A DNA stretch of 45,221 bases, from positions 1 to 45,221 of the forward strand of contig JAMORJ010000024.1 in the NCBI GenBank assembly GCA_027063595.1, given 5' to 3'. Position 1 is the first letter of the stretch, and each line of letters begins with the position of its first letter. Below, one piece after another: positions 2-9,859 of this stretch. The notes under the pieces are model-generated. The model was not told the origin of the DNA. It worked only from the letters and a program-made list of their open reading frames with translations, and made no database searches. The stretch is from Nautiliaceae bacterium. Its GTDB lineage: Bacteria; Campylobacterota; Campylobacteria; Campylobacterales; Nautiliaceae. A program made the position numbers and the translations under genes.

Positions 2-499
2 GTAGAGTTTGCTTATAAATTTGATGAAGGACCAATTGCCTTTAGATATCCAAGAGGAGCGTTTAAATTGGAAGATGGAATTTTTAAAGCAAAAGATTTT
101 GAATTTGCTAAAGCAGAGCTTTTAATTGATAGTGATGAAATTATGTTAATTGGATATGGAAATGGAGTAGGTAAAGCTTATAAAGTTTTAAAAGGGCTTG
201 AAGAAAAGGGAATAAAAGCTGGGTTATTGGATTTAAGATTCGTTAAACCTTTTGATAAAGAACTTTTAAAAAGACTTAAGGCAAAAAAATGGTATGTAAT
301 AAGTGATAATGCAAAAGAGGGTGGGATAGCTGAAATGTTAAGCGATTTTGTAAATGAAGAAGGTTTGAATGTGAAAATTAGAAGTTTTGAATATCCAGAT
401 AAATTTATTCCTCATGGGAGCGTTGAGGAAGTTGAAAAATTTTTAAAAGTAGATATAAATAGCATAATCGAAGCGATTGAGAATGAAAATAGGGTTTAA
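2..499 (+). CDS. dxs: 1-deoxy-D-xylulose-5-phosphate synthase, C-terminal part (partial)
   Basis: This is the 3' end of a gene that enters from upstream; the frame is open from base 2. The visible residues begin with a stretch containing GPIAFRYPRGAF and continue through GVGKAYKVLKGLEEKGIKAG, LLDLRFVKPFDKELL and FIPHGSVEEVEKFL, which is the transketolase C-terminal domain of DXS. The enzyme condenses pyruvate with glyceraldehyde 3-phosphate, the first step of the MEP isoprenoid pathway, in the cytoplasm. The TDP-binding and catalytic N-terminal domains lie outside the window. The TTG at 68 is not a start, because homology runs through it. The stop overlaps the start of the next gene, so the two are probably co-transcribed. 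Confidence 0.93.
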   Translation, partial: VEFAYKFDEGPIAFRYPRGAFKLEDGIFKAKDFEFAKAELLIDSDEIMLIGYGNGVGKAYKVLKGLEEKGIKAGLLDLRFVKPFDKELLKRLKAKKWYVISDNAKEGGIAEMLSDFVNEEGLNVKIRSFEYPDKFIPHGSVEEVEKFLKVDINSIIEAIENENRV

Positions 500-1384: not shown

Positions 1385-1681
1385 ATGATAAATTTTGAAG
1401 ATTTAATAAAAATAGGGATAGGTAGTGCTCTTTTGGCAAAAGAGAAATTGGAAGAATTTATTGAAGAAGCAAAAAAAAGGGGAGAACTTAGCGAAAGTGA
1501 AGCGACTAAGCTGATTGAAGAGTTAAAAAAAGAATCGGAAAAAAAATTAACTGAACTTAAAAATCTAATCAAAGAAGAAGTAAAAAAAGAGTTAGATGAG
1601 CTTGGTGTTGCTACTAAGAAAGATATTGAAGAGTTAAAAAAAGAAATTGCCGAAATTAAAAAATTTTTAAATGAAAAATAG
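1385..1681 (+). CDS. Phasin-like small coiled-coil protein
   Basis: A 98-residue, highly charged, almost fully helical protein. A short hydrophobic N-terminal segment (DLIKIGIGSALLAKEKLEE) precedes long Glu/Lys heptad stretches, including TKKDIEELKKEIAEIKKFL at the C-terminus. This is the appearance of the phasin superfamily (polyhydroxyalkanoate-granule-associated-like proteins); granule binding itself is not shown. It has its own TATAAT box and a strong AGGAGG site. Its last 11 bp overlap the ABC1 kinase gene, so the two are coupled. In other bacteria similar small proteins are found beside ABC1/UbiB kinases, which suggests a partner or regulator role (inference). Confidence 0.7.
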   Translation: MINFEDLIKIGIGSALLAKEKLEEFIEEAKKRGELSESEATKLIEELKKESEKKLTELKNLIKEEVKKELDELGVATKKDIEELKKEIAEIKKFLNEK

Positions 1682-3287
1682 TTTTTACGAATTAAAGCGT
1701 ACAAAAGAAATTATTTTTATTTTAGCTAAATATGGGTTTGGAGATATTATTGAATCTTTAGGAATACCCGTCCCTTTTAAAAGAGAAGTTAATCTCTCAA
1801 GAAGCGAAAGAATAAGAAAAGCGATTGAAGAATTAGGTCCTACTTTTATAAAATTGGCTCAAGTTTTATCTTTAAGGCCTGATTTGATTCCTCTTGAATT
1901 GGCAAAGGAATTCGAAAAACTTCAAGATAATGTAACTCCTCTTCCATTTAGCGAAATGGAAAAGGTGTTAAAAGAAGAGTTTGGGGATTATAAAAAGATC
2001 TTTGTTGAAGATTTTGAGCTTTTGGCAAGTGCATCAATAGGGCAGGTTTATAAAACGAAATTAAATTCAAAAGATGAAGTTGCCGTTAAAATTTTAAAAC
2101 CAGATATTGAAGAGAAAATTTTTGTGGATATTACGATAATTCAAAAATTTGCAAAATTGTTTAGAGATAGATTTTTAATTTATGGAATTGATTTGGTAAA
2201 AATTGTAGATGAGTTTGCAAAAAGTATAAAAAAAGAGCTTGATTATAATATTGAAGCTTTGAATCTTAAAAGATTTAGGGCTAATTTTAAAGATAACCCA
2301 AATATAAAAGTTCCAAAGCTTTATTCGAAATATTCGACAAAACGCGTATTAACTATGGAATTCATAAGAGGAATTAAAATTAGCGATATTAAAAAGCTGA
2401 AAGAAAAGGGTTATGATTTAAAGGAAATTACAAAAAAAGGTTTTGAATTAGTATTTGAGCAAATATTTATCCATCGTTTTTTTCATGCAGATCCTCATCC
2501 CGGCAATTTAATGATTAGTGATGGCAAAATCGTATTTTTGGATTTTGGAATAATGGGAAGATTAAGTGAGGAAGATAAAAAATACTTTGTTGAAATGATT
2601 TATTATGTTATAAGAAACGAGGAAGAAAAAGCAGCTCTTTATGTGTTAAAACTCTCAAAAGTGGAAGGTGAAGTTGATATTGGCGCTTTTAAGAAAGAGA
2701 TGGCTGATATTATTTCAACTTATTTTTATTCTTCCTTAAAACAAGTTGAACTTAGAAGTTTAATTGATGATATGTTAAAGGTAATGAGCAGATACAAAAT
2801 CTATTTTAAAGAAGATAATTATCTTTTAGCAAAAGCTCTTGTTACTATGGAAGGCGTTGGTAAAATGTTATACCCAGATTTTAACGCCGCAGAAGAGATA
2901 AGACCTTTTATTTTAAAATTGTATAAAAGCGAATTTTCTTTGTTTTCCATTTTAAAAAAATCTCAAGAATTTAATAAAAATTTGACGGAGTTCATGATTA
3001 ATTTTACGGCAAATATGAATGAAATAATCTCTAAAATAAAAAATGGAAATTTAAAAATAGAATTTGAGCATGTTGGTCTTGAGGATTTTGAAAATACTAT
3101 AGAAAATTCTTTTAATAGACTTTCAACTTCTATTGTAATAGCTTCTATTTTGATAGGTTCATCCATGCTTCTTAGCTCTAAAATCCCTCCTACGATAAAC
3201 GATATATCTTTACTTGGAATTGCTGGATATGTTTTTGCGTTTATTTTAGGAGTGATTTTGTTAATAACTATATTAAGGAAGAGGTAA
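1671..3287 (+). CDS. ABC1/AarF/UbiB-family atypical protein kinase
   Basis: A 538-residue member of the ABC1 (UbiB/AarF) kinase-like family. Visible motifs: GPTFIKLAQVLSLRPDLIP (the KxGQ region, here KLAQ), LLASASIGQVYK (Ala-rich loop), VAVKILKP (ATP-binding Lys), KKELDYN (ExD motif), FHADPHPGNLMI (catalytic loop) and FLDFGIMGRL (DFG). Two C-terminal hydrophobic segments (about residues 487-505 and 512-534) anchor it in the membrane. In E. coli UbiB supports ubiquinone synthesis, but Campylobacterota use menaquinone, so the role here is more likely another prenyl-lipid or stress function (inference). It overlaps the phasin-like gene by 11 bp and shares its stop with the next start (TAATG). 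Confidence 0.9.
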   Translation: MKNSFYELKRTKEIIFILAKYGFGDIIESLGIPVPFKREVNLSRSERIRKAIEELGPTFIKLAQVLSLRPDLIPLELAKEFEKLQDNVTPLPFSEMEKVLKEEFGDYKKIFVEDFELLASASIGQVYKTKLNSKDEVAVKILKPDIEEKIFVDITIIQKFAKLFRDRFLIYGIDLVKIVDEFAKSIKKELDYNIEALNLKRFRANFKDNPNIKVPKLYSKYSTKRVLTMEFIRGIKISDIKKLKEKGYDLKEITKKGFELVFEQIFIHRFFHADPHPGNLMISDGKIVFLDFGIMGRLSEEDKKYFVEMIYYVIRNEEEKAALYVLKLSKVEGEVDIGAFKKEMADIISTYFYSSLKQVELRSLIDDMLKVMSRYKIYFKEDNYLLAKALVTMEGVGKMLYPDFNAAEEIRPFILKLYKSEFSLFSILKKSQEFNKNLTEFMINFTANMNEIISKIKNGNLKIEFEHVGLEDFENTIENSFNRLSTSIVIASILIGSSMLLSSKIPPTINDISLLGIAGYVFAFILGVILLITILRKR

Positions 3288-5110
3288 TGGTGTTTAAAAA
3301 TTTAAAAAAGAGGGTTAGTTATTTTAAGGTTGTTAAAGAAGAGTTGTATTTGGTAGATGAGGTAAATAGGGTATTAAAATTTGATAAAGATTTGCTTTTG
3401 ATTGGAGGATTTAAGTTAAAGTTTAATAATAATAAACCGACTGAAAAATGCGTAAAAATGGATAAAAACGCAAAATTGTTGGCTGTTGCTTCTAATAATT
3501 TAATTGGGGTTTGGGATTTAAAAAGTAAGAAATTTTTAGGTTCTTTTCAAAGAAAAGACGATATATTATCTATTTCTTTGGATGAAGAATATTTAGTTAG
3601 TGGAGGGGTAAGTGGAGAAATTAAACTTTATAATTTGGAAATAAAAAAAGAGATTGGAACTATTATAAAACATAAGGATTTTGTTACAGATTTGGAAATT
3701 GAAAGCGAAATTAATGAAGTATATGGAGGATGTTACGATAAGGCGGTGGTATTTTGCGACTTGATTACTTATAGAAAAAAAGAGCGTTATTTACATATAA
3801 AGCCTGTTAGAAAAATAGAAAAAAAGGAAACCTTAATTACGGCTGATCAAATTTCAGACATTCTTAAATGGGACGTTGTTAAAACAGAATCTAAAGATAG
3901 AGTTGATTTTTATAAAGAATTTAGAGATTTTTGGATAGATGATAATTTTTTGGTAATTCTTATGAATTCAAAGGTTGCTATTTACGATTTGGAAAAAGAA
4001 GTTATTTTAAATGATAACTTTTTAGAAATTAACGAGGGAGATAAAATAGTCGTTTTTGGTAGGTTTATGTTAATTTCCGATATTAAGGGAGTATTGTATA
4101 AATTTGATTTGTTTGAAGATGAAGAAAAGCTTTTAGATTTAATTTTAAAAGAGGATTTTAAAAGAGCGTATGAGTTAGTTGATAAAAATCCTTTTTTAAA
4201 AAGAACGCTTGCGTTTGAAAAATTAGAAAAATTAGTAGAAGCTATGATAAAAAGAGCTAAAGCTTATTTTGAAACCGATAAAGAAAAAGCAATAGAAATT
4301 TTACAAAAGTTATTGGTCGTTCCTCATTTAAGGGGACAAATTGAAAATATAATTAGAGATTTTGAAAACATAGTTAAATTTAAATTTGCAATAAAAAGCG
4401 GAAATTATGCTCTTGCTTATCAATTGGCAAATCAGTTTCCATTGTTAAAAGAAACAAAATATTATGAATTGCTTGAGAAAAAATGGCAAATAACGTTTGA
4501 AAAGGCATTGAAACTTATAAAAGAAGGAAAAATAAGTGAGGCAAAAGAATTGCTTGAACCTTTTATGGCGGTTCCTACAAAGCTTCCTTTGATTGAATTT
4601 GCTTTAAAAAAAGCAAATATTCTCTTTTTAATGAAGGAAAAATTGGCAAAAAGAGATTTTAAAGGATTTTTTGATTTGGTAAAACTTCATCCGGAACTTA
4701 AAGATACGATTGAATATCAAAAAGTTTTGGAATATGGTAAAAGACTTTTAGAAAAAGCGGAGGAGCTATTTGAAAAAGAAGAGTTTGAAAAGGCAAAAAG
4801 GGCTTTGAATATCCTTTTGGATTTTCCAGATTATGCTCCTAAAGCTCAGAAACTTCTTAAAAAAATTGAAATAGCTCTAGAATTTCAAAGAGTATTGGCT
4901 AATAAAGATTATGAAAAAGCGTATGAATTAATAGAACTTTATCCGTTTTTAAAAAGATTGCCAAGTTATAAAGAATTTATGAAAAAAATTCATAATGCGT
5001 TTAAAGAAGCTGAAAAATTTATGAGCGAAAATAAGAAAGCAGATGCTATTAATACTTTAAAAGAGTTTCAAAATAGATTTACAATGGGAAGAATAGGTCA
5101 GATTATTTAA
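3287..5110 (+). CDS. Beta-propeller (WD40-like) plus 84-residue helical repeat protein, paralogue 1
   Basis: A 607-residue protein of unknown function. Residues ~1-280 look like a degenerate WD40 propeller (GVWDLKSKKFLGSF, YLVSGGVSGEIKLYNLE, VYGGCYDKAVVFCDL). The rest is a tandem helical array. Units begin with DFKRAYELVDKNPFLKRT (residue 290), NYALAYQLANQFPLLKET (373), DFKGFFDLVKLHPELKDT (457) and DYEKAYELIELYPFLKRL (541), a period of 83-84 residues. Between them lies a second motif of the type EAKELLEPFMAVP. There is no signal peptide or membrane segment, so it is cytoplasmic. Its start overlaps the ABC1 stop (TAATG). It ends convergent with polA (8-bp overlap). It is clearly paralogous to the protein at 7751-9859. 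Confidence 0.85.
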   Translation: MVFKNLKKRVSYFKVVKEELYLVDEVNRVLKFDKDLLLIGGFKLKFNNNKPTEKCVKMDKNAKLLAVASNNLIGVWDLKSKKFLGSFQRKDDILSISLDEEYLVSGGVSGEIKLYNLEIKKEIGTIIKHKDFVTDLEIESEINEVYGGCYDKAVVFCDLITYRKKERYLHIKPVRKIEKKETLITADQISDILKWDVVKTESKDRVDFYKEFRDFWIDDNFLVILMNSKVAIYDLEKEVILNDNFLEINEGDKIVVFGRFMLISDIKGVLYKFDLFEDEEKLLDLILKEDFKRAYELVDKNPFLKRTLAFEKLEKLVEAMIKRAKAYFETDKEKAIEILQKLLVVPHLRGQIENIIRDFENIVKFKFAIKSGNYALAYQLANQFPLLKETKYYELLEKKWQITFEKALKLIKEGKISEAKELLEPFMAVPTKLPLIEFALKKANILFLMKEKLAKRDFKGFFDLVKLHPELKDTIEYQKVLEYGKRLLEKAEELFEKEEFEKAKRALNILLDFPDYAPKAQKLLKKIEIALEFQRVLANKDYEKAYELIELYPFLKRLPSYKEFMKKIHNAFKEAEKFMSENKKADAINTLKEFQNRFTMGRIGQII

Positions 5111-7700
5111 GTTCTCCCCATCTTTTTGCAAAAGATATACCTACTTTTAGTGGAACTTTTAATTTAAACGCTTTTTCCATTATTTCTTTATAGTAATTTG
5201 CTTCTTCTTTATTTTCTATTTCAAAAATTAATTCGTCGTGAATTTGAAGAATCATTTTTGAATTTGGAAAATTATTTTTTATATCAATCATTGCTTTTTT
5301 AATAATATCTGCCGCACTTCCTTGAAAAACAGTATTTACCGCTTCTCTTTCGTATGAAGCTAAAGTTTTTTGGTTTGCGCTTAAAAAGTTAAAAAATCTT
5401 CTTCTTTTTAAAAGAGTTTCTACGTATCCGTTTGCTTTTGCTTCTTCTTTAATTTTTTCTAAATAATTTTTTACCGTTGGGAAAGAATCAAAATATTTTT
5501 TTATAAACTCTTTTGCTTCTTTTAAAGAAACTCCTATTGTCTCGCTTAATTTTTTAGGTCCCATTCCATAAATTAATCCAAAGTTTATTGATTTTGCAAC
5601 GCTTCTGCTAACTCCTATAATATCGGCTGTTTTTTGATGAATGTCTTCATTGTTTAAAAATGCTTCAATTAATTTTTCATCTTCACTAAAATGAGCTAAA
5701 AGTCTTAATTCTATTTGAGAATAATCAAGACTTACGAATAATTTATCTGTAATAAATGCATTTCTTATGTTTATTTCAGTAGAGGTTGGAATGTTTTGAA
5801 GATTTGGGTTTTTGCTTGATAATCTTCCAGTAGCCGTTCCTGTTTGGAGGAAGTTTGTATAGATTTTGTGATTTTTGTCTTTTTTTGCGTATTCTTTTAA
5901 GGGAATTATATAAGTTGATAATAATTTTTCTAATTTTCTAAATTCTAAAATTTTTGGAATTATTGGATGAGCGTTTTTTAATGAATTTAATACTTTCTCA
6001 TCAGTTGAATAGCCCGTTTTTGTTTTTTTCTTTACAGGAAGTTTTAATACTTCAAAAAGAATATGACTTAATTGTTTTGTGCTCTTTATATTAAATTCTT
6101 TTCCTGCTAATTTATGAATTTCTTTTGTTAGTGTTTCTATTTTCTTTGAAACTTCTATTTGTAGCTCTTCTAAATATTTGATATCTACTTTTATACCTTC
6201 TTTTTCCATGTCTATTAAAAGATTTATAAAAGGCATTTCTATATTTTCAAAATCCCAAATTACTTCATTCCAAAGTTTGTTTTTTAAGACATGGTATAGT
6301 TTTAAAGTGATTAAAGCATCTTCTGCTGCGTATTTAGATGCTGTTTTTATGTCTATTTCTTGAAAATTTTGATTTTTTCCTACTATTTCTTTGTATTTTA
6401 TGTTTTCATGATCTAAATATCTTTTGGCTACGCTATCAAGCCCAACGGGAGAATCTGGATCTATTAGCCATGCTAAAATCATCGTGTCGGCAAAAGGAGT
6501 TGGAGTTTTTAATCCGTAATTTCGTAGCATTTTAAAATCAAATTTTAAATTATGTCCAATTACTTTTTTTTGAAGAATTTTTTCGATTGCCTTAAGAGCT
6601 TTTTTTTGGTCAATTTGTTTACTTACTCCAAGATAAAAATGATTAATTGGAACGTAATAAGCTTTGTTTTCTTCAAACGCAAAGCTAAAACCAACTATTT
6701 TTGGATTTTCAAGGGAATCGGTTTCGGTATCGAAAGCTACTATTTTATCGCCAATCTTGTCTATTATTTCAAATAATTCCTTTTCGTTTTCTAATATTAT
6801 GGTTTCAAATTCTATTTTTTTTGGTTCTTTTGTTTTTATAAACAATCCATCTTTTTTTACTCTTTCAATAACGGATTTTATATCTAAATCAATTAACTTA
6901 TCGGCAACTTTTAAAATAGGATTAATTTCTGGATATTTAAATTCTTCTAAATTTAAGTTATCAAATAAATCCGTTTTTAAAGTTACTAACTCTCGACTTA
7001 AAAATGCATCTTTTTTTCCTTCTATTAGTTTTTTTTTGATTGCTCCTTTTATTTCGTCTATATGTTCGTATAAATTTTCAAGAGTGTGGTATTGATTTAT
7101 AAGCTTTGCTGCAGTTTTTTCTCCAATTCCTTTAACTCCTGGAATATTATCGCTTCTATCTCCCACAAGAGCCTGAAAATCTCTAAAATTTTTAGGATGA
7201 ACGCCAAATTTTTCAATACATCCTTTTTCATCGATTTCTATTTTTTTTAGTGGATCAAAAATTACTATTTTCCCATCTTTTATTAGTTGATACATGTCTT
7301 TATCATGACTTACTATTTTAACTTTTATTCCTTTGTTTGCGGCTGTTGTGGCTAATGAAGCTATAATATCATCACTTTCATAACCAGGTATCTCAATAAT
7401 TTTAAATCCCATTTCTTTTATTAAATTAATTGCAATTGGAAGTTGAGTTTTAAGATCTTCTGGAGCTTCTGGACGGTTGGCTTTATAGTCTTTAAAAATT
7501 TCTTTTCTAAAGGTTTCTTTTTCTTTACTATCAAGAGTAAAAACTACATAATCGGTTGGAAAATCTTTTCCTAGAGAAGCTATAAAATTCATAAATCCGG
7601 TAATCATTCCGGTTGGAATGCCTTTTTTGCTTTTTAATTTTGGAAGCGCATAATAATTTCTAAATAAAAATCCAAAAGTATCGATTATAGTTAGAGTCAT
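5103..7700 (-). CDS. polA: DNA polymerase I
   Basis: 865 residues with all three Pol I domains. The N-terminal 5'-3' exonuclease starts MTLTIIDTFGFLFRNYYALP and includes a helix-hairpin-helix region (GIGEKTAAKLINQY). The 3'-5' proofreading domain keeps its metal ligands: VAFDTETDSL, GHNLKFDFKML and YAAEDALITLKLY. The polymerase domain has motif A (VSLDYSQIELRLLAHF), motif B (RSVAKSINFGLIYGMG) and motif C (LQIHDELIFE). It fills gaps in excision repair and removes Okazaki primers. Proofreading appears intact, unlike in Taq-type enzymes. The start is ATG at 7700 with AAGG upstream. It lies between two paralogous propeller genes and shares a divergent promoter region with the second. Confidence 0.97.
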   Translation of the reverse strand: MTLTIIDTFGFLFRNYYALPKLKSKKGIPTGMITGFMNFIASLGKDFPTDYVVFTLDSKEKETFRKEIFKDYKANRPEAPEDLKTQLPIAINLIKEMGFKIIEIPGYESDDIIASLATTAANKGIKVKIVSHDKDMYQLIKDGKIVIFDPLKKIEIDEKGCIEKFGVHPKNFRDFQALVGDRSDNIPGVKGIGEKTAAKLINQYHTLENLYEHIDEIKGAIKKKLIEGKKDAFLSRELVTLKTDLFDNLNLEEFKYPEINPILKVADKLIDLDIKSVIERVKKDGLFIKTKEPKKIEFETIILENEKELFEIIDKIGDKIVAFDTETDSLENPKIVGFSFAFEENKAYYVPINHFYLGVSKQIDQKKALKAIEKILQKKVIGHNLKFDFKMLRNYGLKTPTPFADTMILAWLIDPDSPVGLDSVAKRYLDHENIKYKEIVGKNQNFQEIDIKTASKYAAEDALITLKLYHVLKNKLWNEVIWDFENIEMPFINLLIDMEKEGIKVDIKYLEELQIEVSKKIETLTKEIHKLAGKEFNIKSTKQLSHILFEVLKLPVKKKTKTGYSTDEKVLNSLKNAHPIIPKILEFRKLEKLLSTYIIPLKEYAKKDKNHKIYTNFLQTGTATGRLSSKNPNLQNIPTSTEINIRNAFITDKLFVSLDYSQIELRLLAHFSEDEKLIEAFLNNEDIHQKTADIIGVSRSVAKSINFGLIYGMGPKKLSETIGVSLKEAKEFIKKYFDSFPTVKNYLEKIKEEAKANGYVETLLKRRRFFNFLSANQKTLASYEREAVNTVFQGSAADIIKKAMIDIKNNFPNSKMILQIHDELIFEIENKEEANYYKEIMEKAFKLKVPLKVGISFAKRWGELK

Positions 7701-7717
7701 AAAAAACCTTTTTTTGG

Positions 7718-7727
7718 TATTATAATA
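7718..7727. promoter_or_regulatory. Palindromic divergent -10 region between polA and propeller paralogue 2
   Basis: TATTATAATA is its own reverse complement, so it presents a TATAAT box on both strands: 7721-7726 (+) and 7724-7719 (-). The gap is only 50 bp and serves polA leftward and the propeller gene rightward. Initiation in the two directions may therefore compete (inference). Confidence 0.6.
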
Positions 7728-7750
7728 TCATAAATTTAAAAGGAGAAAGT

Positions 7751-9859
7751 TTGAAGGTAGAGAAAATATTAAACTTAAAGCATCCGATTTCATTAGTAAA
7801 ATATATCAATTCAAAAGTAGGGGTAATAGATAAAGCAAATACTTTTAGAATGTTTGATATTAACGATTTTTCTTTAATGGGAGGGTTTAAGATTAAGCTT
7901 CCTGAAAACAATCCTTTGGAAAATAGCGTTGATATTTCGATAAATGGAAATTATTTAGCTGTTGCAATAAAAGGTAAAAGAAAAACTACTATATGGGATG
8001 TAAATCAAAAAAAATTAATCCATACTCTTGGGTGGCATAAAGGAGAAGTATTAAGTGTTAGTTTTGATTTTGACGAAAATTATTTAATTACAGGTGGAAT
8101 GGATGGGAGAGCTTATCTTTGGTCAGTTGAACTTGGAAAAATGGTAAGTTCTTTACCTCCTCATCCTGATTATATTTTAAGTTCGGCTTTTAGCATAAAT
8201 TCTTTATGGGCGGCAACGGGAAGTTATGATAGAATGACTTCTATTACGAATATTACTTCAATAAATATAAATTACAGGAAAAAAGCTCACAGAGGTGCCG
8301 TAACTAAAATTAAATTTTTTAAAAAGTTTATGATTAGTGGCGATAAAACGGGAGAATTGATTGTATGGGATTATCCAAAAGGAAAAATATTAGGAAGAAT
8401 GCATAACGTTGCTGATATGGTGATTGATATGGCAACCGATGAAAATGAAGAATATTTATTTGTGATTACAAAAACCAAATACGTTTATTTATACGATTTA
8501 AAAACTTACGAATTAATTACCGATAAATTTATCACTCTTAGCGAGCTTCCAAGTTCTATTACTTATGTTCCTGAAAATACGATGCTTTGGATAGGAACGC
8601 TTGGAGGTAGCATTTATATTTTTGATATTTATTCCGATGAAAAAAAATTGATCGAAGCGGTTAAAAATAATAAATATGATGAAGCATATGAGCTTATTAA
8701 GAAAAATCCTTTTCTTGAAAGAACCGAAGCTTATAAACAGCTTGATGAAATTTGGAATAAGACTGTCTCTACTGCTTATAGATTAATGGAAAAGGGAGAA
8801 TACGATAAGGCTAAGCAAATTTTGGCTCCATTTTTGGCGGTTCCTCAAAAAAGAACGATTATTCAAAACATTTTAAAAGATTTTAGCGAGTTTGAAAAAT
8901 TCAAACAAGCTGTTTTAAAAAGAAAGTATCCTCTTGCTTATTCTTTAGCGGCGATGTATCCTTCTTTTAAAGATACGATTTATTATAAAAAAATGGAAGA
9001 AGATTGGAAAAGGGTATTTGCTAAGGCAAAAGAACTAATTAAAATAAGAGGAAAAGAAGATGAAATTAGAAAACTTTTTATGCCATTTAGAGGGGTTACT
9101 TCAAAAACTCCTTTAATTCAGGCGTTATTTAACGATAAACAATTATATGAATTATTGAGAAATTATTTATTATCAAGGAAGTTTGATAAATTTTTTGAGT
9201 TGGTTCAAAGAAATCCTTTTCTTTATGAAACTCCAGAGTATGAACAAGCTATGAAATTTGCAAAAAAACTTGATGAAGAAATACAGAAAAAACTGAAAGA
9301 AACAAAATTTAAAGAAGCTTTAAGTCTTGCCCAAATGCTTGAGATGTTTCCGGAATATAAAGAAAAAGCAAAGGAATACATTAAAGAAGCAAATATTTTA
9401 TCTAATTTTCTTAGTGCTCTTGCCAATAACGAATATGATGTTATTGAAAAAATGGCTTTTGAGTATCCGTTTTTAACCGAAAATGAAGATTATATCGAAT
9501 TTAAGAATAAAATTACTCAAAAATTTAAACTTGCTGAAAATGAAGCTATGAAAGGTAATATTAAAAAAGTTAGCGAAATTTTAGGCGATTTATATAAGAG
9601 TAATATTTTTAAATCAAAAATCGAAAATTTAATTAAATCCGCTTATTTGAATCAATTGCTTGGCATTTTGGTAAAAAAAGATAAAGAAAAACTTCAAAAA
9701 GGGGTTGATAATTATATAGCTTATTTTGGATTTGATAACGAAATTGAAGATATTATAAAGATGGCTAAAAAACTAGGTATGAATTTAGAAATTAAAAATA
9801 CCGAAAAAAGTAGATTTTTAGATTTTAATAATCTTCCTAATTTTATTTGGGAGGATTGA
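7751..9859 (+). CDS. Beta-propeller (WD40-like) plus 84-residue helical repeat protein, paralogue 2
   Basis: A 702-residue protein of unknown function. The N-terminal ~300 residues carry clearer WD40 blades than paralogue 1 (TTIWDVNQKKLIHTLGWHKG, YLITGGMDGRAYLWSVELGK, MISGDKTGELIVWDYPKGK, WIGTLGGSIYIFDI). Helical units start at KYDEAYELIKKNPFLERT (308), KYPLAYSLAAMYPSFKDT (392), KFDKFFELVQRNPFLYET (477) and EYDVIEKMAFEYPFLTEN (561), with a diverged fifth near 643: a period of 84-85. The start is TTG, supported by AGGAG five bases upstream. The N-termini of both paralogues align (GGFKLKF / GGFKIKL, then LLAVA / YLAVA). No signal peptide is seen. The 3' end overlaps mobA by 42 bp on the other strand. 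Confidence 0.85.
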   Translation: MKVEKILNLKHPISLVKYINSKVGVIDKANTFRMFDINDFSLMGGFKIKLPENNPLENSVDISINGNYLAVAIKGKRKTTIWDVNQKKLIHTLGWHKGEVLSVSFDFDENYLITGGMDGRAYLWSVELGKMVSSLPPHPDYILSSAFSINSLWAATGSYDRMTSITNITSININYRKKAHRGAVTKIKFFKKFMISGDKTGELIVWDYPKGKILGRMHNVADMVIDMATDENEEYLFVITKTKYVYLYDLKTYELITDKFITLSELPSSITYVPENTMLWIGTLGGSIYIFDIYSDEKKLIEAVKNNKYDEAYELIKKNPFLERTEAYKQLDEIWNKTVSTAYRLMEKGEYDKAKQILAPFLAVPQKRTIIQNILKDFSEFEKFKQAVLKRKYPLAYSLAAMYPSFKDTIYYKKMEEDWKRVFAKAKELIKIRGKEDEIRKLFMPFRGVTSKTPLIQALFNDKQLYELLRNYLLSRKFDKFFELVQRNPFLYETPEYEQAMKFAKKLDEEIQKKLKETKFKEALSLAQMLEMFPEYKEKAKEYIKEANILSNFLSALANNEYDVIEKMAFEYPFLTENEDYIEFKNKITQKFKLAENEAMKGNIKKVSEILGDLYKSNIFKSKIENLIKSAYLNQLLGILVKKDKEKLQKGVDNYIAYFGFDNEIEDIIKMAKKLGMNLEIKNTEKSRFLDFNNLPNFIWED

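Follow-up and report, generated by a model that had tools for sequence, protein, structure and literature searches.

Paralogous propeller-solenoid proteins flanking polA in a Nautiliaceae bacterium belong to a Campylobacterota family that co-occurs with flagellar FliG

We analyzed a 45,221-nucleotide stretch of DNA from a deep-sea-type Nautiliaceae bacterium (assembly GCA_027063595.1, contig JAMORJ010000024.1, positions 1 to 45,221; hereafter the window), which carries two paralogous genes, A and B, on either side of polA. As a first-pass annotation had reported, gene A (3287..5110, forward strand) encodes a protein of 607 aa from an ATG start and gene B (7751..9859, forward strand) a protein of 702 aa from a TTG start preceded by AAGGAG. 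The two proteins are 34% identical over residues 6-603, and no further family member was found in the window's genome. B begins with a WD40 propeller, probably of seven blades, at residues 3-292 (7757..8626, forward strand). This region matched the WD40 model PF00400 at 58 bits (cut-off 27) and the designed propeller Tako8 with E=3e-37, and the prokaryotic WD40 protein structure PDB 5yzv was the best fold match of B. AlphaFold2 (AF2) models of A and B were built on 5-sequence alignments; the model of B (mean predicted local distance difference test score, pLDDT, 79) placed 26 strands within residues 3-292, with a low-confidence stretch at residues 149-182 where two missing propeller strands would fall. 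The corresponding region of A (residues 1-276, 3287..4114, forward strand) gave weak WD40 matches (18.6 bits to PF00400, under the cut-off; best propeller model E=8e-9), and its model (pLDDT 71) dropped under 50 within the propeller at residues 125-220, so that the blades were not resolved. Judged by profiles and models, the propeller of A appears degenerate, and the WD40-like blades first annotated in both proteins are a solid assignment for B only. No signal peptide or membrane helix was detected in A or B (maximum 19-residue hydropathy 1.2 and 1.0, respectively), in agreement with the probable cytoplasmic location suggested earlier.

The propeller of B is followed by a regular array of helices from residue 297 through 674, and AF2 predicted a good array in A at residues 278-606 (mostly pLDDT 74-92). 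The models and unit profiles delimit four units in A, namely unit 1 (residues 290-373, 4154..4405), unit 2 (residues 374-457, 4406..4657), unit 3 (residues 458-541, 4658..4909) and a shortened unit 4 (residues 542-607, 4910..5107), all on the forward strand. B, also on the forward strand, has unit 1 (residues 309-392, 8675..8926), which carries the motifs AYELxxxNPFLxxTxxY and then AKxxLxPFxxVPxK, unit 2 (residues 393-477, 8927..9181), which includes a lysine (K452) invariant in 30 aligned homologues, units 3 (residues 478-561, 9182..9433) and 4 (residues 562-644, 9434..9682), likewise delimited by model and unit profiles, and a terminal half unit (residues 645-676, 9683..9778) with no counterpart in A; overall, A lacks about one C-terminal unit relative to B. 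Hairpins start at residues 291, 374, 458 and 542 in the model of A and at 309, 393, 478, 562 and 645 in that of B, in phase with the tandem units of ~84 residues originally read from the sequence. Each unit consists of two hairpins of ~42 residues resembling tetratricopeptide repeats (TPR), each with one short and one long helix. Hairpins of two types, bearing NPFL/T/Y and PFxxVPxK motifs, follow each other in turn along the array. When units 1-4 were aligned with each other by hhalign, the E-values (5e-12 to 3e-24) lay far beyond chance; single-unit profiles scored other units at 17-46 bits on average, compared with 1-2 bits for shuffles. The solenoids of A and B are 34% identical and the propellers 27%, and among 30 homologues 75% of pairs showed higher conservation in the solenoid than in the propeller. 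The proposed layout of a propeller followed by an alpha-solenoid is supported by AF2, clearly for B and with a degenerate propeller for A.

No named family had been recognised for the repeat, and no Pfam or NCBIfam model spans the array. Tandem hairpins of regular length, as in TPR solenoids, are present in A and B; no Pfam TPR model reached its cut-off (A scored 20.9 bits against TPR_6, cut-off 26.3), and the sole match below 0.001 in a PDB profile search was 4y6c, a 42-residue TPR-like design (E=1.2e-4). Searches of the solenoid in 30 members against coat, nucleoporin and intraflagellar transport (IFT) families gave no Pfam match at cut-off, with sub-threshold Clathrin_H_link and TPR_IFT121 matches in 2 of the 30. 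Pfam matches to YfdX, cytochrome b562, spectrin and similar families were scattered (best E=1e-5, at most 5 of 30 members) and were treated as reflecting helical composition. A role as mobile cargo was set aside, as the solenoid had no match in plasmid and phage collections, and so was anti-phage defence, for which there was no meaningful PADLOC match.

We then considered 219 good genomes of the order, with Nautiliaceae designated f1 and other taxonomic families given by code. Homologues were present in 88 of these genomes. Almost all matches to the solenoid profile fell within frames of 600-740 aa, typically ~700 aa, and hence the array rarely occurs without an N-terminal domain. Trees of 44 and 82 sequences, rooted at the midpoint only, resolved three main groups: B and its orthologues (f1, f13, f4, f16, f19, f21, f23 and, loosely, f8), a clade A confined to Nautiliaceae, and a large clade C that unites other paralogues and had 99% support once one long-branched row was excluded. 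Genomic context labels clustered on the tree, with 22 changes compared with a shuffled mean of 55. Since the genomes searched were of that phylum, the family, as recognised by sequence, is so far seen only in Campylobacterota, and the claim is one of presence there. Literature searches on WD40 with Campylobacterota and on Nautilia/Helicobacter or Wolinella motors returned no paper on a propeller-solenoid family. At one further locus (L051, G003:C1:898137-899780), WD40 matches recur within very long open frames (841 and 2029 aa) that seem to have no relation to the solenoid family.

Comparison with the flagellar protein FliG revealed a close association (the P-values below take no account of shared ancestry). 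FliG was found in 189 of the 219 genomes; all 88 carriers of the family were FliG-positive, and the 30 genomes without FliG included no carrier (hypergeometric P=4e-8). Taxonomic family f6 supplies many of the FliG-negative genomes, and co-occurrence was therefore also examined within taxonomic families. Among 150 genomes of f16, 12 of the 14 that lacked FliG also lacked the family, the exceptions being G300 and G386, which are 88-89% complete (P ~1e-10). The 128 good f16 genomes comprised 112 with both genes, 6 with FliG only, 0 with the family only and 10 with neither (Fisher P=4e-11); these 10 belong to genera g66 and g79 and to one species of g60 (G293). Within Nautiliaceae, G004 (99% complete) and G009 (83%) have neither FliG nor the family, and G015 (57%) and G018 (80%) have B and no FliG match. 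Judged by FliG, genomes without the native flagellum thus lack the family, with exceptions only among genomes less than 90% complete. It is carried by 88 of the 189 FliG-positive genomes, which is not the distribution of a core flagellar component. Two f16 genomes without the family carry a FliG that is 52% (G203:C1:368707-369699) or 37% (G301:C18:11100-12092) identical to the query, compared with 62-70% typical of f16; the sequences suggest replaced flagellar sets, in agreement with the flagellar replacement and loss published for Campylobacterota (PMC9321776), although we do not equate these genomes with the published ones. In another genome without the family, the FliG match (G281:C132:391-1413) contains one in-frame TAG and may be a fliG pseudogene or a sequencing error.

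Loss of the family can also be followed at single loci. B orthologues in f4, f16, f19, f21 and f23 lie in an operon of the order CoA-binding protein, ilvA, family gene, ppx/gppA, ilvB, ilvN and lpxD, with gaps of a few bases and a set of members that varies between loci. In four FliG-negative genomes (G293, G283, G273 and G284) ilvA abuts ppx/gppA and the family gene alone is missing; in G203, with its unusual FliG, ilvA is followed by ilvB without the family gene. The FliG-negative G004, of the window's genus, retains moaC, a mobA-like gene and polA, lacks B, and its mobA-like gene overlaps polA. When one gene alone is gone from an otherwise retained operon, neither genome reduction nor missing contigs is a likely cause. 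G177 was left out of this comparison, as its operon was recovered but the caller of open reading frames chose an opposite-strand frame over ilvA. G327 and G301, in which ilvA was not found, are not clean cases either. The FliG-positive G008 lacks the family, but no polA turned up in its assembly, and it does not count as a clean counter-example. Beside polA at the position of A, G004 carries SbcC/SbcD-like genes (L137:5201-10806), along with what appear by eye to be two cas2-like frames and one cas1-like frame.

In clade C the family gene has a recurrent upstream partner, whose protein bears a recognisable domain C-terminal to PAS that we call PAS-C and that, from a weak PAS_8 overlap, is possibly a degenerate PAS fold. 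Profile matches to PAS-C occurred in 23 of the 219 genomes, and every match at E<=1e-9 lay directly upstream of a family gene, with overlapping reading frames in most cases. The family gene after PAS-C is broken at two loci (L115 and L116); at a third (L122) the contig ends after PAS-C, with a partial family match just downstream. Two matches at ~1e-7 (L117 and L118) have no family gene alongside. The frames at L115 and L116 (G164 and G222) are cut to 497 and 409 aa beside an intact PAS-C, as if the downstream partner alone had recently decayed. Domain searches confirmed receiver and PAS domains in the partner proteins, whose inputs vary between a receiver, a PAS domain, the two combined, and a membrane protein bearing a sub-cut-off Tll0287-like match, while PAS-C and the propeller-solenoid stay constant. 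In f20 the pair lies within an island of histidine kinases and a receiver-GGDEF-EAL protein. No recognised output domain was found in the PAS-C partner protein; the propeller-solenoid stands in the position of the expected output domain, and this arrangement gives the strongest hint at a mechanism.

The wider neighbourhoods differ by clade. Clade C genes follow a PAS or receiver-PAS protein in f5, f7, f9, f15, f20 and f21 and a receiver-only protein in f16; in f14 they lie between minD-minE-yibQ and dprA or adjoin ispG, and in f15 ahead of secA. At one f7 locus (L105) fliFGH-dxs precedes the PAS gene and the family gene, and clade A loci lie downstream of fliF-fliG-fliH-dxs-msrA-phasin-ABC1, with some members absent in some species. 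A CheZ-like gene (PF04344 E=1.5e-4, below cut-off) stands directly 3' of the family gene in f23; CheZ-like genes were located at L086:5620-6841, L104:6110-6793 and L096:6159-6866, with two tandem copies in L086. B orthologues adjoin a divergent polA in f1 and f13 (and in one long-branch f17 row), and ABC1 is immediately upstream of A at 6 of 11 A loci. The neighbours singled out at the outset, polA and the ABC1 kinase gene, are thus confined to particular lineages: a polA partnership is lineage-local, and G004 keeps polA without B; an ABC1/phasin partnership is restricted to f1 and missing from some A loci. The informative neighbours are instead the PAS/receiver protein, the ilvA-ppx operon, fliFGH and the CheZ-like gene elsewhere in the phylum.

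Taken together, these data lend good support to a link with motility and make the family a probable accessory of native flagellar motility or taxis. The fuller statement, in which the family members, A and B included, are cytosolic propeller-solenoid adaptors serving native flagellar motility or taxis, we put at about even chances. We infer the mechanism, including docking, signal direction and target, as follows. Family members would act as cytosolic adaptors that join a variable WD40 propeller to a more constant TPR-like solenoid. In one clade, input would come from a dedicated receiver and/or PAS partner ending in PAS-C, which would dock on the propeller-solenoid, and the latter would pass on redox state or phosphorylation state to the chemosensory machinery or the polar motor. 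Proteins A and B would do the same kind of job via partners other than PAS-C. A more specific form is tentative: a two-part sensory device of Campylobacterota in which variable receiver, PAS or membrane inputs are fused to a constant PAS-C, and PAS-C docks on a coat-like propeller-solenoid that replaces the output domain and controls the polar flagellum, A and B using other inputs. Several observations weigh against a motility role. FliG was the sole flagellar marker used. Many flagellated genomes do without the family, which shows that flagella as such do not require it. Losses are clumped phylogenetically, and four carriers are FliG-negative (G300 and G386 in f16, G015 and G018 in f1), for which a missing contig is the likely explanation, as they are 57-89% complete. 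G303 is FliG-positive and yet shows the same excision of the family gene, and family loss is therefore possible without FliG loss. The commonest operon context (ilvA-ppx-ilvBN-lpxD) is unrelated to motility, and no PAS-C protein was found in the Nautiliaceae genomes searched, hence no PAS-C partner for A and B.

A structural role in the polar flagellar motor, or at the pole itself, as a cytoplasmic scaffold and not a signalling adaptor, is unlikely but fits part of the evidence: the co-loss with FliG, the fliFGH-dxs cluster beside A in f1 and beside a family gene in f7, the f14 member between minD-minE and dprA, and the mention of unidentified cytoplasmic proteins near the stators in motor work (PMC12222027). 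The patchy distribution among flagellated genomes is unlike that of core motor parts, however, and the PAS-C/receiver partner points to regulation. Somewhat less credible is a generic WD40-TPR adaptor with no motility link, whose correlation with FliG would reflect shared ancestry and general gene loss; FliG-negative genomes come mostly from few clades (f6, g66 and g79) and incompleteness of metagenome-assembled genomes hits both genes, but the single-gene excisions from kept operons fall in several separate lineages (G004, G293, g79 and g66) and complete genomes stand on both sides. The tight, recurrent operon in f4, f16, f19, f21 and f23 and the ABC1 overlap in f1 would suit a metabolic scaffold, with B holding branched-chain amino acid enzymes (IlvA/IlvBN, Ppx/GppA) together and A serving isoprenoid/quinone synthesis (Dxs, ABC1/UbiB). 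We consider this improbable: the operon persists intact after loss of the family gene, the neighbour in f1 and f13 is polA in place of ilvA, ABC1 is absent at 5 of 11 A loci, and the joint loss with FliG is left unexplained. Least credible is the membrane-coat or vesicle scaffold first read from the domain order, which fits the published definition (PMC2799638) and has IFT-A chains among the top structure matches of A, but that match is local with low global similarity (TM ~0.15, root-mean-square deviation ~25 A), no coat-family sequence relation reached cut-off, there is no membrane segment, and the distribution of the family is tied most strongly to flagella; loss in lineages without a native flagellum makes a motility or taxis adaptor likelier than a vesicle coat.

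That definition requires a beta-propeller N-terminal to stacked alpha-helix pairs in a protein of 500-1500 aa (Santarella-Mellwig 2010, PMC2799638), a description that applies clearly to B and, with its degenerate propeller, to A. The same 2010 survey, with far fewer genomes, called this order unique to eukaryotes and PVC (Planctomycetes-Verrucomicrobia-Lentisphaerae) bacteria (PMC2799638). Like the membrane-coat-like proteins of PVC bacteria and eukaryotic coat, nucleoporin and IFT subunits, A and B pair an N-terminal beta-propeller with a C-terminal alpha-solenoid; unlike coats and IFT proteins, the family has one propeller, a length of 600-720 aa, TPR-like 42-residue hairpins and a flagella-linked distribution, and its coat resemblance is one of domain order. 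Campylobacterota are not known for internal compartments. A widespread Campylobacterota family with a motility signature indicates that the propeller-solenoid order can serve a purpose other than endomembranes. Kinesin-light-chain-type TPR-like repeats (PDB 4y6c) share the 42-residue hairpin period, whereas the hairpins of A and B are of two alternating types and form an 84-residue unit. B has its WD40 propeller in common with prokaryotic WD40 proteins (PkwA of Thermomonospora, PDB 5yzv), but the family has no kinase or NTPase and is fused to a conserved solenoid. By eye, the PAS of several PAS-C partners appears to resemble that of the CetB/Aer energy-taxis sensors; these partners end in PAS-C and pair with a propeller-solenoid rather than a chemoreceptor, and the pairing offers a directly testable partner. 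CheO and ChePep are taxis accessories of Campylobacterota, with CheO confined to the phylum and reported mainly from host-associated genera (PMC9665402); the likeness to the A/B family would lie in an accessory role in taxis, compared by description only. Among flagellated relatives, entire groups such as f11 and the f14 genera g40 and g48 lack the family. The phylum's well-studied pathogens may be among them, which would explain why motility studies there missed it.

The remaining features of the window lie around A and B. polA (5103..7700, reverse strand) separates them, with 50 nt between its start and that of B and an 8-nt overlap of its end with A; it is a syntenic neighbour for which no functional partnership is claimed. 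As initially noted, an ABC1/UbiB-type kinase gene (1671..3287, forward strand; PF03109 E=3.6e-74), whose stop codon shares 1 nt with the start of A, and a phasin-like gene (1385..1681, forward strand; PF05597 E=1.6e-7), which overlaps the kinase gene and recurs in f1, lie upstream of A. Further upstream is the 3' end of a dxs-like gene (68..499, forward strand; Transketolase_C E=2e-24), whose homologous cluster in relatives follows fliF-fliG-fliH. At its own 3' end, B overlaps a convergent MobA-like gene by 42 nt (9818-9859), and relatives show similar overlaps.

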